This document shows positions 1,303 to 55,510 of a stretch of 64,000 nucleotides of DNA, in pieces (within the stretch, counting starts at the first letter, position 1; the number at the start of each line of letters is the position of its first letter). The DNA lies in assembly GCA_030148805.1 (NCBI GenBank), contig JASBSS010000026.1, positions 124,001 to 188,000 of the forward strand, given 5' to 3'. This stretch comes from Thiogranum sp. Lineage in GTDB: Bacteria; Pseudomonadota; Gammaproteobacteria; DSM-19610. The translations under genes and the position numbers were made by a program. A model generated the notes under the pieces. It saw nothing but the letters and a program-made list of their open reading frames with translations. It had not been told where the DNA came from and did not search any database.

Positions 1303-4008
1303 TTAATGCACCGTCATATTGCCGGCGCGTTGTGGCAGGCCGGCGCTCGACAAGGAGGCCAGTTTCCACTTGGCCTGATGCACCCATTCCACGAAACGGG
1401 CCGCCGGCAGCGGCCGCGAGATGAAATAGCCCTGGGCGATGTCGCAACCCATCATGCGCAATTCGTTCAGCGAGGCTTCGCTTTCCACGCCTTCGGCGAT
1501 GGCGCCCAGACCGATGCCGTGGGCCAGATCGATGGTCGACTGCACGATGACGTGGTCGTTGGCGTCATTGTCCATTTCCATGACGAAGGACTTGTCGATC
1601 TTCAGACTGCGTACCGGGAATTTCTTCAGATAGGCCAGGGAGGAAAACCCGGTGCCGAAGTCGTCCACCGAAAGGGCGTGCCCCATGCTGGCAAGCTGCG
1701 AGAGCGTGGCGATGGTACGCTCGGGGTCCGACATCATGGCGCTTTCGGTGATCTCGAACTCCAGGTGGCGGGGGGTGCGGTACCAACGCTCCACCTCCTT
1801 GCTGACGTAGGCGGCGAAGTTCGGATCCTGGAGATCCCAGATGCTGAGATTCACCGAGATCGGCAGATCGATTTGCAGGCGCGTGGACCAGTGGTGCGAG
1901 GTCTGCAGCGCCTGGCGAATCACCCAGCGCGTCAGCGGACGGATGAGGCCGGTCTTTTCCGCCAGCTTGACCAACTCTTCGACGTTCACCTGCCCGAACT
2001 CCGGGTCCTGCCAACGCAGCAGCGCCTCGGCACCGACGATACGCTCGCGGCGCAGGTCGATTTTCGGTTGGAAGTACAACTCCAGGGCGTCGCGATCAAT
2101 CGCCAGCCGCAACCGCGTCTCCAGCTCCAGCGAGCGCATGGTGTTGGCGTCCTGCTCGGCGGAATACATGGAGATCCCGCCGGTCTCTTTCTTGGCGTCG
2201 TACATCGCCACGTCGGCGTGCTGAAGCAGCGCCTCGGCGTTGTCCCCGTGCTCCGGGTAGACGGCGATGCCGATACTGCCACTGATGATCAGATGATTCT
2301 CGTTGATGTTGAAATAGCGCTTCATCGCGATGCCGACCTTCTTCGCCACATGGCCGGCCTGGGTCGCGTCGATACAGGGCAGGAGCAGGGCGAATTCATC
2401 CCCGCCGAGACGACAGACCGTATCGGTTTCGCGCAATACGGCGACCAGACGCTTGCCGACCAGTTGAATTAGCTTGTCGCCGGTGCTGTGGCCCAGGGTG
2501 TCGTTGATCTGTTTGAAGCGATCCAGGTCGATCATCAACAAGGCGAAGGATTCGCCGCGGCGCTGACTGCTGATGATGGTCTGCGTCAGCCGGTCGAACA
2601 GCAATGAACGATTGGGCAGATCGGTGAGTGGATCGTGCAGGGCGCGGTAGCGGATTTCCTCCTGTTGCTGGTGAATATGCGACGAGTCGGTCACCGATCC
2701 GGCCATGCGCACGATGCGCCCACCGCTGTCGCGCAGCGCCTTGCCGCGCAGGCGGATCCAACGTTCGCCTTCGTGGGTATGGATACGAAATTCGGTGTCC
2801 AGATAGTTTTCCACGGAATTTTCGCGAAACAGCGCGAACAGGTGCTGAAAGGGCGCGGCGTCGGAGGGCAACATCACGCTTTCGAGCAGCACCACCAGAT
2901 CGTTGGCGTTTTCCGTGGTGCCGAGAAGGTGGCGGGTACGCTGTGCCAGATAGAGCTCACGACCGGCAATGTCCCAGTCCCAGATGCCATCGTTGGTGCC
3001 CGAGACGGCGAGCGTGAAGCGCGCCTGTTGCGCGCGCCGCTCCCGCTCCAGTCGCCGGGTCTTGATGTGCAGGATGCTCAGCAGAGCGAACAGGACCACG
3101 ATCAGTCCGAGGAACAAGCTCAGATAGAACATCCGCTGCTTCTGGCGTTCCACCTCGCGATGTGCCTCGGCGACCTGCAGCCCGGGATCGAGGTGCGCGG
3201 CGGCGGTGAAGATACGCGTTTTATAGGTGTCCAGGCCGAACTCCTCGATATAGTTCTGGGTGTCGCTGCTGATCAGGAAATCGAGAAACTGTTGCGCCAG
3301 GCGGGCATTGACACCCTTCATCCGGGCCGGATTGACAATGATGTAGTTGTAGAAGTTCTGCAGCGCCTTGTGGTCGCGATATAGCGGGCTGATGGTCTCC
3401 GAAATCTTGCTGCGCAGGGAAAAATAGGTGCCCAGGTCGGCGAAGGCATAGGCGCCGAACTGGGCGGCGGCCAGAACCGTGGTGCGCGAACTCGATTGCA
3501 TCGACTGGTAACCCAGCCAACCGGGGGCGACGTTGGCGACCTTGAGCAGTTCCGCCAGGCGCTGATAGGTTCCCGATTGCTTGCCCTGGACGAAGAAGTC
3601 GACCTGATTGTCCGAAAGCGTTTGAAAGACCTTGGCCAGCTCGTCCTCGCCGGAGATCCCCAGGGGATCGTCCTTCGGACCCAGGATGGCGAACTGGTTA
3701 TACATGATCAGTGTGCGCGACAGCCCCAGCCCGTCATCCATGAACAAGCGCTCGCTGGCGGGATGGTGGGTGAGCACCGCGTCGGCCTGGCCTTGGCGGG
3801 CGCGGGTCAGCGCCGAGACGGCGCCCACGGAGGTGACCTCGATCTGATGCTCGGGGTGGCGCTCGTGGAAACGTTTGGCGAGCGCGGTTATCAGACCCTG
3901 TTCGTTCGCCGTGGAGGCGATCGACAACCTGAGCGTATCGGCGTGCAGTTCGCCGCTCAGGAGCATCATCAGGAGTAAGTGGAAAAGTGCTGCTACCAGT
4001 TTGCGCAT
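1303..4008 (-). CDS. TupA-like periplasmic sensor / PAS / GGDEF / EAL protein
   Basis: About 901 aa. A signal peptide is followed by a periplasmic binding domain (about 25-265) resembling the tungstate-binding protein TupA: it has TupA-like segments around MYNQFAILGPKDDP and QSGTY. Then come one transmembrane helix (about 290-312), a PAS domain, GGDEF and EAL. GGDEF is intact (LGGDEF) with an RETD inhibitory site five residues before it. EAL is intact: EALLRW, EITES, DDFGTGFSS, EGVE, QGY. It is therefore probably a bifunctional c-di-GMP enzyme at the inner membrane controlled by a periplasmic anion such as tungstate or molybdate. The TupA ligand loops are altered (GAVSAL where TupA has GTGQAL), so the ligand is uncertain. 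The ATG at 4008 starts a clean signal peptide; a longer frame to 4065 begins less plausibly. Confidence 0.85.
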   Translation of the reverse strand: MRKLVAALFHLLLMMLLSGELHADTLRLSIASTANEQGLITALAKRFHERHPEHQIEVTSVGAVSALTRARQGQADAVLTHHPASERLFMDDGLGLSRTLIMYNQFAILGPKDDPLGISGEDELAKVFQTLSDNQVDFFVQGKQSGTYQRLAELLKVANVAPGWLGYQSMQSSSRTTVLAAAQFGAYAFADLGTYFSLRSKISETISPLYRDHKALQNFYNYIIVNPARMKGVNARLAQQFLDFLISSDTQNYIEEFGLDTYKTRIFTAAAHLDPGLQVAEAHREVERQKQRMFYLSLFLGLIVVLFALLSILHIKTRRLERERRAQQARFTLAVSGTNDGIWDWDIAGRELYLAQRTRHLLGTTENANDLVVLLESVMLPSDAAPFQHLFALFRENSVENYLDTEFRIHTHEGERWIRLRGKALRDSGGRIVRMAGSVTDSSHIHQQQEEIRYRALHDPLTDLPNRSLLFDRLTQTIISSQRRGESFALLMIDLDRFKQINDTLGHSTGDKLIQLVGKRLVAVLRETDTVCRLGGDEFALLLPCIDATQAGHVAKKVGIAMKRYFNINENHLIISGSIGIAVYPEHGDNAEALLQHADVAMYDAKKETGGISMYSAEQDANTMRSLELETRLRLAIDRDALELYFQPKIDLRRERIVGAEALLRWQDPEFGQVNVEELVKLAEKTGLIRPLTRWVIRQALQTSHHWSTRLQIDLPISVNLSIWDLQDPNFAAYVSKEVERWYRTPRHLEFEITESAMMSDPERTIATLSQLASMGHALSVDDFGTGFSSLAYLKKFPVRSLKIDKSFVMEMDNDANDHVIVQSTIDLAHGIGLGAIAEGVESEASLNELRMMGCDIAQGYFISRPLPAARFVEWVHQAKWKLASLSSAGLPQRAGNMTVH

Positions 4009-52294: not shown

Positions 52295-53578
52295 ATGAGT
52301 CACACTGAAATGAAAATCTATGTGGAGGATCTGAAGATCGGGATGTACGTTTCCCGGCTCGATCGCCCGTGGGTGGAGACCCGCTTCCTGTTCCAGGGTT
52401 TTCGTATCAGTACCCAGGAGGATATCGACGAACTGCGCAATTTTTGCGAGTACGTCTACATCGATCATGAAGAGCGCGACAGTGCCCCCCCTGCTGCGGA
52501 CGTGGTCGCGGCCGCGCGGGCCGGAGCCCGGCCCAAGCCCGCTGCCACGGTCATCGTGCACCAAGGCAAGGCCGATAAGCTGGGGGAGATCTTCCGCTCG
52601 CCGCCGGAGCGGGAGGTGTATCCGGTAACCACACCGATCGACGAGGAAATGGCGCCGGCGCGGGCCAGTCGCGAGGCGACCGTGGAGCTGGTGAGCGAAT
52701 TGGTGACCGACCTCAAGGCCGGCCGAAAAATCGCGCTGCCCGCGGTGCGCAACGGGGTGGGCGCGATGATCGACAGCATCATTCGCAACCCGGCGGCGTT
52801 CATGTGGCTGACGCGGCTGAAGAACAAGGATTCTTACGCCTATACCCACTCGGTGGACGCCTGTGGACTGGCGGTGGCCTTCGGCCGTCACCTTGGCCTG
52901 GCGAAAAAGGAGCTGGAACAGCTGGCGTTGGGAACCCTGCTGTTCGATATCGGGAAATTACAGCTCCCGGACAGCTTGCTGACCAAGCCGGGACGCCTTA
53001 CCGACAAGGAATACAAGCTCATCCTCCGCCACGTCGAATTCGGGGTCAAGATCGCCGCCGAGACCGACGGCATCGACGAGGAAGTGATATCGGTGATCGC
53101 GCATCATCACGAGCGCCACAACGGCACGGGTTATCCGCGTGGCCTCCCCGGCCACCAGATCCCCGTCAATGGCCGCATCGCCGCCTTGGTGGATTGTTAC
53201 GATGCGATCACCAGTGACCGGCCCTACAGCCCGGCCATGTCGACCTACGATGCGATTCAGTCGTTGTACGAATGGCGCGACAAGGATTTTCAGGCGGAAA
53301 TGGTCGAACAGTTCATCCAGTGTATCGGCCTGTACCCGACCGGTACCCTGGTGGAACTCACCACCGGCGAGGTCGGCGTGGTGTTGGCCCAGAACCGGGT
53401 GCGTCGCTTGCGGCCACAGGTCCTGGTCCTGTTGGATCGGAACAAATACGCCTACGACATTAAGCCAACGCTCGATCTCATTGACGAGCCGGTGGACGAG
53501 CGCGGCCAGCCCATCGAAATACGCCGTCCGCTCCCGGTCGGCGCCTACGGCATCAACGTCGGTGATTATTACCTGTGA
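52295..53578 (+). CDS. HD-GYP domain protein with DUF3391, HD dyad altered to FD
   Basis: 427 aa. An N-terminal DUF3391-type domain (about 1-105) precedes an HD-GYP domain (about 165-360). HHHERHNGTGYPRGL (270-284) is complete, and ALVDCYDAITSDRPY is normal. The metal-binding HD dyad, normally in LHDIGK, reads LLFDIGK (Phe217, Asp218). HD-GYP enzymes hydrolyse c-di-GMP to pGpG or GMP at a bi- or trinuclear metal centre; loss of the His may change or abolish activity. The stop overlaps the GTG start of the next gene. Confidence 0.85.
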   Translation: MSHTEMKIYVEDLKIGMYVSRLDRPWVETRFLFQGFRISTQEDIDELRNFCEYVYIDHEERDSAPPAADVVAAARAGARPKPAATVIVHQGKADKLGEIFRSPPEREVYPVTTPIDEEMAPARASREATVELVSELVTDLKAGRKIALPAVRNGVGAMIDSIIRNPAAFMWLTRLKNKDSYAYTHSVDACGLAVAFGRHLGLAKKELEQLALGTLLFDIGKLQLPDSLLTKPGRLTDKEYKLILRHVEFGVKIAAETDGIDEEVISVIAHHHERHNGTGYPRGLPGHQIPVNGRIAALVDCYDAITSDRPYSPAMSTYDAIQSLYEWRDKDFQAEMVEQFIQCIGLYPTGTLVELTTGEVGVVLAQNRVRRLRPQVLVLLDRNKYAYDIKPTLDLIDEPVDERGQPIEIRRPLPVGAYGINVGDYYL

Positions 53579-54921
53579 CCTCCCCCGTCCCCCCTTTCGA
53601 GCCCGGCGGACTGTTTGTCAACGACCGACAGCGGGGCCCTCTGTTGGAGAGACTGTCGCAGGAACTGTCCTTGGCGCGGCAACGTAAGGAGTCATTGGCG
53701 CTGCTGAAGTTTAACCTGGTGAGATTTCGCCAGATCAACGCCGATTTCGGTCACGCGGTGGGCGACCGGGTATTGGCGGAGGTCTATCAGCGTATCGCCA
53801 AGGCTTTGCGGGAAACAGATGTTCTCTATCATTTGGGTAACGACGAGTATGCGGTCATCCTGACCCGACTGCGTATTCCCCAGGCGCCCGAACTGGCGAT
53901 CAGAAAAATACTGCACGGCATCGGCGAGAACATAGAGATCGATCAACAGGTGCTGTCGGTGAGCGCCACCGCCGGCGCGGCGGTGTTTCCCGAGCACGCC
54001 TCGGATCGCGACAGCCTGCTCAAGGCCGTCGATGCCGCCCTGCTCATCGCCCGCGAGCGACAGACCAGCTATACCCTTTACGACGCCGGCACGCGCAGTG
54101 AGGACATACGCCAGGCGGAGCTCAAGGGTAGCCTGCGGTCTGCGTTGGATGGGGGGGAGTTGATGCTTCACTATCAGCCGCAACTGAATCTGCAACAAGG
54201 CGTGTTGTGTGGCTGCGAGGCGTTGGCCCGCTGGAAGCACGCGGAGATGGGCTGGGTCTCGCCCGAGTTGTTCGTCGGCGTGGCGGAAAGAGCCGGTATG
54301 ATCGATTCGTTGACCTATTGGTCGATCAACGTCGCCCTGCGGGAATGGTTCCAGTTCTGCATCGCCAGTGAATCGGCTTCCGTGTCGGTCAACCTCTCGG
54401 CGCAGCTGCTGCATTCCCCCGAACTGGTGCCGATGGTCGAGCACGCGGTGAACATATGGGGCGCAAAACCCGGATCTCTGGTGTTGGAAGTCACCGAAAG
54501 CGCCATGATGATCAATCCTCAGACCGCGCTACGTACGCTCCATCAGCTGCACGAGATGGGGATTACGCTTTCGATCGACGATTTCGGCACCGGGTACTCC
54601 TCTCTCACTTATTTGAAGAAGCTCCCCGTCTCGGAACTCAAGATCGACAAAAGCTTCATTTTCCACATGGCCGAACAACAGCAGGATCGGCGCATTGTCC
54701 AATCGGTGATCGATCTGGCCCATACCCTCGATATGGTGGTGGTGGCCGAGGGCATAGAGAACGAGCAGATATTGAACATGCTGGTGGCCATGGGGTGCGA
54801 CTACGGTCAGGGTTTTTATATCGCGCGGCCGATGCCCGCGGCCGACCTGCGGCCCTGGGCGCAGTCCAGCCCCTGGCGTATGCCCAAAGAGGTCATGTCC
54901 GGCCTGCTCAGCAACGCCTGA
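53575..54921 (+). CDS. Degenerate-GGDEF/EAL protein, probable c-di-GMP phosphodiesterase
   Basis: 448 aa, soluble, GTG start at 53575 overlapping the HD-GYP stop (GTGA). The GGDEF motif is GNDEY (88-92) and the first metal Asp is Asn47, so cyclase activity is unlikely, yet the RETD inhibitory site (79-82) is kept. The EAL domain is complete: CEALARW, VNLSAQLL, EVTESAMM, DDFGTGYSS, KIDKSF, EGIEN, GQGFYIARP. It probably hydrolyses c-di-GMP, with the GGDEF half perhaps sensing GTP or c-di-GMP. Confidence 0.88.
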   Translation: MTSPVPPFEPGGLFVNDRQRGPLLERLSQELSLARQRKESLALLKFNLVRFRQINADFGHAVGDRVLAEVYQRIAKALRETDVLYHLGNDEYAVILTRLRIPQAPELAIRKILHGIGENIEIDQQVLSVSATAGAAVFPEHASDRDSLLKAVDAALLIARERQTSYTLYDAGTRSEDIRQAELKGSLRSALDGGELMLHYQPQLNLQQGVLCGCEALARWKHAEMGWVSPELFVGVAERAGMIDSLTYWSINVALREWFQFCIASESASVSVNLSAQLLHSPELVPMVEHAVNIWGAKPGSLVLEVTESAMMINPQTALRTLHQLHEMGITLSIDDFGTGYSSLTYLKKLPVSELKIDKSFIFHMAEQQQDRRIVQSVIDLAHTLDMVVVAEGIENEQILNMLVAMGCDYGQGFYIARPMPAADLRPWAQSSPWRMPKEVMSGLLSNA

Positions 54922-55000: not shown

Positions 55001-55510
55001 ATGACCCCAAAAGGCCTGCTGCTACTGTTTCTGGTGTTCGCCCCGTCCGGCTTGGCCGAGGCCCAGGCGGAGTTCGAACAAACCGCCTATGAAGAGCCGC
55101 GCGTGGTGTTCGATTTCTATTTCGACGAACCGGAAAAAATCAACGCCGCGCTGTTCTGGATCCGCTCGCTGACCGGGCCGTTGCTCGAATCGCCCTATGA
55201 CATGGCGCCGGAAATGATGGATATCAAAGTCATCATTCACGGAACCGAGATCGTCACCGTGGCCAAGCGCAACCTGGCCAGGTATCGCGACGCGGTCGAG
55301 CGCATGCGCTACTACGCGGCATTGGGCGTCGAGTTTCGTGTTTGCGCCCTGGCCGCTCAGGACTACGATTACTCGGCCCAGGACTTCCACGACTTCATCA
55401 CCATCGTCCCCTCGGCCATTACCGACCTGGCACACTGGCAGCAACGCGGGTACGCGGTGATCACGCCCAACATCATGATCAAGAAACACGCCATCGAAGA
55501 GATTCGCTGA
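55001..55510 (+). CDS. Exported DsrE/DsrF-like protein
   Basis: 169 aa from ATG 55001 (CGGAGGG upstream). Signal peptide ends near AEAQA. The mature domain fits the DsrE fold: VVFDFYFDEPEKINAALFWIRS, IKVIIHGTEIVTVAKRNL, and FRVCALAAQDYDY with a conserved-position Cys, then an AVITPNIMIKKHAIEEI tail. Periplasmic DsrE-like proteins may carry sulfur on the Cys, but this is not proven. It converges with the LolA-like gene. Confidence 0.7.
   Translation: MTPKGLLLLFLVFAPSGLAEAQAEFEQTAYEEPRVVFDFYFDEPEKINAALFWIRSLTGPLLESPYDMAPEMMDIKVIIHGTEIVTVAKRNLARYRDAVERMRYYAALGVEFRVCALAAQDYDYSAQDFHDFITIVPSAITDLAHWQQRGYAVITPNIMIKKHAIEEIR

Follow-up and report, generated by a model that had tools for sequence, protein, structure and literature searches.

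The HD-GYP protein and the EAL protein encoded side by side in the window, a stretch of 64,000 nucleotides from Thiogranum sp., probably constitute a split, regulated c-di-GMP phosphodiesterase. They would form an old, co-inherited module in which an HD-GYP pseudo-phosphodiesterase controls a sensorless EAL protein in trans. Degeneration of the HD-GYP protein, its pattern of conservation, its linkage to the EAL gene, the common descent of the EAL partners and their missing sensor are all apparent from sequence comparisons.

The two c-di-GMP-related genes adjoin on the same strand, and their coordinates were confirmed (Table 1). An earlier note on this DNA had described a DUF3391-HD-GYP protein with phenylalanine in place of the catalytic histidine and an intact GYP motif, followed by a GGDEF-EAL gene with a GTGA overlap. 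Open reading frames, Pfam searches and alignment to PmGH bear this out, and the degenerate GNDEY, complete EAL and intact RxxD (RETD) ascribed to the EAL protein are likewise present. A promoter scan gave no signal above chance. About 80 nt 3' of the EAL gene begins a frame (55001-55510, +) for a DsrE-like protein whose N terminus is hydrophobic and resembles a signal peptide. A second GGDEF-EAL protein, a paralogue outside the pair with a long N-terminal part, lies at 1336-2610 (-) in an open frame of 927 aa.

Table 1. Features of the gene pair. Coordinates are those of the window, and residue numbers refer to the respective protein.
Feature	Coordinates	Strand	Basis
DUF3391-HD-GYP protein, 427 aa, degenerate HD motif (FDIGK)	52295..53578	+	ORF, Pfam, alignment
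DUF3391 domain, aa 6-148; residues 63-103 predicted disordered	52310..52738	+	Pfam PF11871 8.3e-26; pLDDT < 50 at 63-103
HD-GYP domain, about aa 176-349	52820..53341	+	Pfam HD_5; VIA-align
Phe217 codon (TTC), position of PmGH His221, first residue of HD	52943..52945	+	alignment
His271-His272, metal-ligand pair, equivalent to PmGH H276/H277; in 100/100 linked members	53105..53110	+	
GYP motif, residues 279-281, intact	53129..53137	+	
GTGA overlap of HD-GYP stop and EAL start codon	53575..53578	+	
Sensorless GGDEF-EAL protein, 448 aa, GTG start	53575..54921	+	ORF, Pfam
Degenerate GGDEF domain, aa 22-163	53638..54063	+	Pfam
RxxD I-site RETD, aa 79-82	53809-53820	+	
A-site GNDEY	53836-53850	+	
EAL domain, aa 186-419, catalytic set complete	54130..54831	+	Pfam EAL 2.8e-70

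The N terminus of the HD-GYP protein matches PF11871 (DUF3391) with 91.6 bits against a curated cut-off of 27.8, and HD_5 matches residues 176-329 (8.5e-31). F217 aligns with H221 of the HD motif of PmGH (4mcw), so that the HD diad is absent as a metal ligand (F217-D218). Retained relative to PmGH are D179, H185, D218, K221, H246, H271, H272, the GYP motif, D300 and D303. The residues required in PmGH that are missing besides His221 are E185 (Tyr181 here) and K317 (Ser312); with tyrosine at the E185 position the window protein resembles the Y/F subfamily, a common one among HD-GYP domains (PMC4159591). The AlphaFold2 model has a mean pLDDT of 85 overall and above 90 in most of the HD-GYP domain. 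In comparisons with solved structures by VIA-align, the Z scores are 24.9 for Bd1817, 20.3 for DvhD, 20.0 for PmGH and 18.9 for PA4781; together with the HD_5 match, the similarity to PmGH places the HD-GYP fold, with its GYP motif, in the window protein. DvhD contacts c-di-GMP at its canonical site through eight side chains; the window protein has five of these unchanged, one conservatively replaced and two that differ. Y181, L235, Y280, R309 and Y311 match DvhD nucleotide contacts, and DvhD K582 and E668 correspond to Y240 and R328.

The EAL protein of the window possesses the full set of EAL, N, ExTE, DD, K, E and Q residues, and across 100 distinct linked pairs each catalytic or metal-binding EAL position is 98-100% conserved. 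The GGDEF domain of the partners is degenerate: GG[D/E]EF is intact in just two of the 100, the GNDEY of the window departing from it, and the RxxD I-site is retained in 77. An N-terminal sensor domain is usually absent from the partners, whose open frames have a median length of 451 aa; a Pfam search of the window's EAL protein found no domain besides GGDEF and EAL. The other GGDEF-EAL proteins listed for the window's genome are located elsewhere, in frames of 566-1076 aa, and four further genomes likewise have the partner among their shortest proteins with both domains.

Searching the PF11871 family over 369 Gammaproteobacteria genomes gave matches in 115; 140 loci were fetched with up to 6 kb per side, and the 80 closest relatives from named genomes were added. 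Once loci at contig edges are excluded from the class sample, a same-strand EAL gene lies directly downstream of 33 of the 47 DUF3391-HD-GYP genes whose products lack the histidine (replaced by F, L, M, C, I, Q or S), versus 2 of the 92 whose products keep it. For the tree set the association has a Fisher p of 4e-24, with kinship ignored. One of the two His-type exceptions (L252) adjoins an EAL gene of another clade whose product has a 447-residue N-terminal part; in the other (L271) the EAL neighbour is doubtful, its ORF sharing 2 kb with the HD-GYP frame. The open reading frames fetched include no natural HD-GYP/EAL fusion, and this arrangement was rejected. Two genomes from the same family have the HD-GYP and EAL genes in convergent (tail-to-tail) orientation (L013, 1498-4067; L018, 751-2409; L273 is the L013 locus). 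Further losses of the histidine are seen in L335 and L338, which have KDVGK, with lysine in place of the HD histidine, and no adjacent EAL gene.

Close relatives show the same pattern. The window's genome is close to Thiogranum, with 88% protein identity to a Thiogranum MAG. In 20 genomes of its order there are eight same-genus orthologues, the window's included; F217 is present in seven and cysteine in one, and the EAL gene is directly downstream in seven, the eighth being cut by a contig end. Phe217 and the pairing in the window are therefore not due to chance. In the same family, a second set carries Leu or Met at 217 ('LLLDVGK') and also has an adjoining EAL gene. The seven other DUF3391-HD-GYP proteins of these genomes all have histidine, and none (0/7) has an adjacent EAL gene. 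In a phylum sample, the members from other classes among 30 loci with a readable motif keep HDIGK and have no adjacent EAL gene; spread beyond the class was accordingly rejected, and the pair seems restricted to the Gammaproteobacteria as GTDB defines them. Chitinilyticum (L077) counts as a betaproteobacterium under NCBI names, and a match in a Desulforhopalus MAG may be misbinned.

A FastTree phylogeny of the DUF3391-HD-GYP proteins, built without column 217, contains one clade in which 57 of 58 rows are non-His and which includes nearly all EAL-linked proteins. It requires four changes between His and non-His and 21 changes of residue identity at 217. A 58-row subset analysed with IQ-TREE also requires four; its root is unsure, as is the long-branched pair L178, which falls among the non-His rows, and a strictly single loss of the histidine is thus unproven. 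Linkage changes about nine times on the trees. Only three close contrasts between histidine loss and linkage are independent, so that their association rests on roughly one old event and long maintenance.

A branch with support 90 separates all 100 EAL partners from 41 GGDEF-EAL paralogues of five genomes, and support for the partner clade is 99 after the addition of 36 rows. The EAL proteins of two rearranged pairs, one convergent (L013) and one spaced (L248), fall inside this clade; the EAL protein beside the His-type L252 falls outside it. Among 27 GGDEF-EAL proteins of five genomes with an unpaired HD-GYP protein, none belongs to the partner clade, aside from the already-linked partner of the one genome (G177) that also holds a linked pair. 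Distances between HD-GYP proteins and between EAL proteins are correlated (r 0.72), as shared species history would also predict. Taken together, the partner clade, its absence elsewhere and the correlation indicate, from sequence, that the pair is inherited, and mostly lost, as one unit.

Histidine occurs at position 217 in none of the 100 linked pairs, where F is found in 44, L in 34, M in 10, C in 7, I in 2 and others in the rest; Q, S and Y also occur in the family. The idea that FDIGK might be a fixed motif was therefore rejected; what is fixed is the absence of histidine. The EAL gene does follow in most members, although the changes in linkage on the trees mean that it does not do so always. 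The GTGA overlap is real in the window, but a 4-nt overlap is found in only 13 of the 100 pairs and was rejected as a conserved feature; adjacency is the conserved part, and in 97 the EAL start lies between -31 and +60 nt from the stop of the HD-GYP gene.

The remainder of the pocket is nearly constant in the linked pairs. Out of 100 members, H246, H271, H272, Y280 and D300 are present in all, D218 in 99, I289 in 98, R309 in 97, K221 (or R) in 95 and H185 in 90. Where no EAL gene follows directly, as in 19 non-His members, eight have K221 (or R) and 14 have D218; these differences have p values of 2e-7 for K221 and 3e-4 for D218 with kinship ignored. When independent pairs are compared, two to three of seven are concordant for K221 retention and linkage and almost none discordant, which is not significant. 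Ten members of the non-His clade without an EAL neighbour (L056, L067, L073, L105, L239, L240, L253, L265, L272 and L281) have often lost K221, and some EAL-less members of this clade lose D218, with motifs such as MDIGM, CEVGM, LDVGN and SEIGM. It is as if they were decaying or being re-purposed further.

In the proposed mechanism, the EAL protein would be the enzyme that converts c-di-GMP to pGpG. Loss of the HD histidine has very probably left the HD-GYP protein catalytically dead: the metal centre would be disabled for hydrolysis, while the GYP loop, most nucleotide contacts and the remaining metal ligands stay. Hydrolysis is abolished in PmGH H221A, and PmGH with iron at the G site alone binds c-di-GMP unhydrolysed (PMC4159591). 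DvhD, an HD-GYP protein in which SQ replaces HD, acts as a c-di-GMP receptor that changes its dimer and does not hydrolyse the nucleotide (PMC13090378). PA4108, an HD-GYP protein of P. aeruginosa with an uncharacterised N-terminal domain, and similar proteins work slowly and also take pGpG as a substrate; a role in sensing, not degradation, was suggested for them (PMC3774798). We infer that the HD-GYP pocket of the window protein most likely binds a ligand, with c-di-GMP the first choice and pGpG the second, and that the protein, through direct contact, would change how active its EAL partner is or where it is located. Linkage by itself is no proof of such contact. The HD-GYP protein would then do in trans what a sensor domain does in cis for other EAL proteins. 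Specifically, the former HD-GYP enzyme may have become an allosteric receptor for c-di-GMP or pGpG, giving substrate activation or product feedback, a proposal that we make tentatively. Residue 217 varies often and yet stays non-His, and the other pocket ligands are nearly fixed, which supports the receptor. The replacements at the positions of DvhD K582 and E668 and of PmGH K317, and the repeated changes of linkage on the trees, speak against it.

The earlier note had left a choice between a sensor or scaffold and another metal set with two-step degradation. The comparative data favour the former, since loss of the histidine coincides with one co-inherited family of sensorless EAL proteins. 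As a rival to the receptor, the HD-GYP protein could be a dead scaffold or localiser that senses no nucleotide, its DUF3391 domain binding another signal or target and its degenerate fold docking the EAL protein. The loss of the histidine fits this, as does the higher conservation of R24, E118, R164, E338, Q342 and R371, the last three C-terminal, in linked than in His-type members; contact-based local signalling is also discussed for E. coli GGDEF/EAL proteins (PMC5635695). Conservation of D218, H246, H271, H272, Y280, I289, D300 and R309 at 97-100% nonetheless goes beyond what pure docking needs, and we consider the scaffold unlikely.

Slightly less likely still is that the HD-GYP protein remains an enzyme, its centre reduced to one or two metals, and acts for instance as a pGpG hydrolase completing the reaction of the EAL protein. 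All ligands but one are retained, including K221 and D179; PA4108 and PA4781 hydrolyse pGpG (PMC3774798), and VCA0681 is active despite missing one of the residues required in PmGH (PMC4212101). On the other hand, the DUF3391 protein VC2497, also missing one such residue, was inactive in all assays (PMC4212101), and a common catalytic role does not explain why residue 217 is free among F, L, M, C, I and Y. Most substitutes at 217 (F, L, M, I) are non-coordinating residues, and PmGH H221A is inactive; another metal set and two-step degradation are therefore disfavoured. It is very improbable that the pair is an ordinary operon, co-transcribed for dosage, in which decay of the HD-GYP protein is tolerated since the EAL protein supplies the activity. 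Adjacency and overlap of the genes would be expected of such an operon, but decay should hit the other ligands too. These are near invariant despite a mean pairwise HD-GYP identity of 0.42 across the pairs, and K221 is kept far more often with the EAL gene (95/100) than without it (8/19).

The split phosphodiesterase proposed here resembles several known systems in part. PmGH and other HD-GYP phosphodiesterases share with the window protein the fold, the GYP motif and all metal ligands but one; the window protein differs by its Phe for the HD histidine and by the pairing with an EAL gene. Its best structural match, Bd1817 (3TM8), is an inactive HD-GYP protein with an N-terminal domain named DUF3391 (PMC12943098), but its HD diad is retained and its GYP motif has lost the Tyr (PMC4159591), the reverse of the window protein. 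DvhD of D. vulgaris (PDB 9rbz) is similar in its degenerate HD motif and in its Y, L, Y, R and Y contacts. It is, however, a metal-free PAS/HD-GYP protein with a periplasmic output, SQ for HD and MN for HH, whereas the window protein loses one ligand alone and has an EAL enzyme as its neighbour. Pairs of H-NOX proteins with diguanylate cyclases or phosphodiesterases (SwH-NOX/SwDGC) likewise have a separate sensor that controls a GGDEF-EAL protein in trans, but there the sensor is a haem protein and not a degenerate phosphodiesterase (PMC8846402).

No description of the HD-GYP/EAL pair was found in the open-access literature searched. All of the domains are known; the novel part would be a conserved HD-GYP protein disabled at one residue together with an EAL partner of its own. 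The enzymes of c-di-GMP metabolism mostly have their sensor within the same chain, and degenerate HD-GYP proteins have seldom been studied. About 100 distinct pairs keep a disabled HD-GYP protein beside an intact EAL protein, which makes the role of the pseudoenzyme directly testable, and cultured genera that hold the pair include Lysobacter, Rhodanobacter, Haliea and Hahella. The pair also bears on the role of DUF3391 and on the sensing of pGpG.
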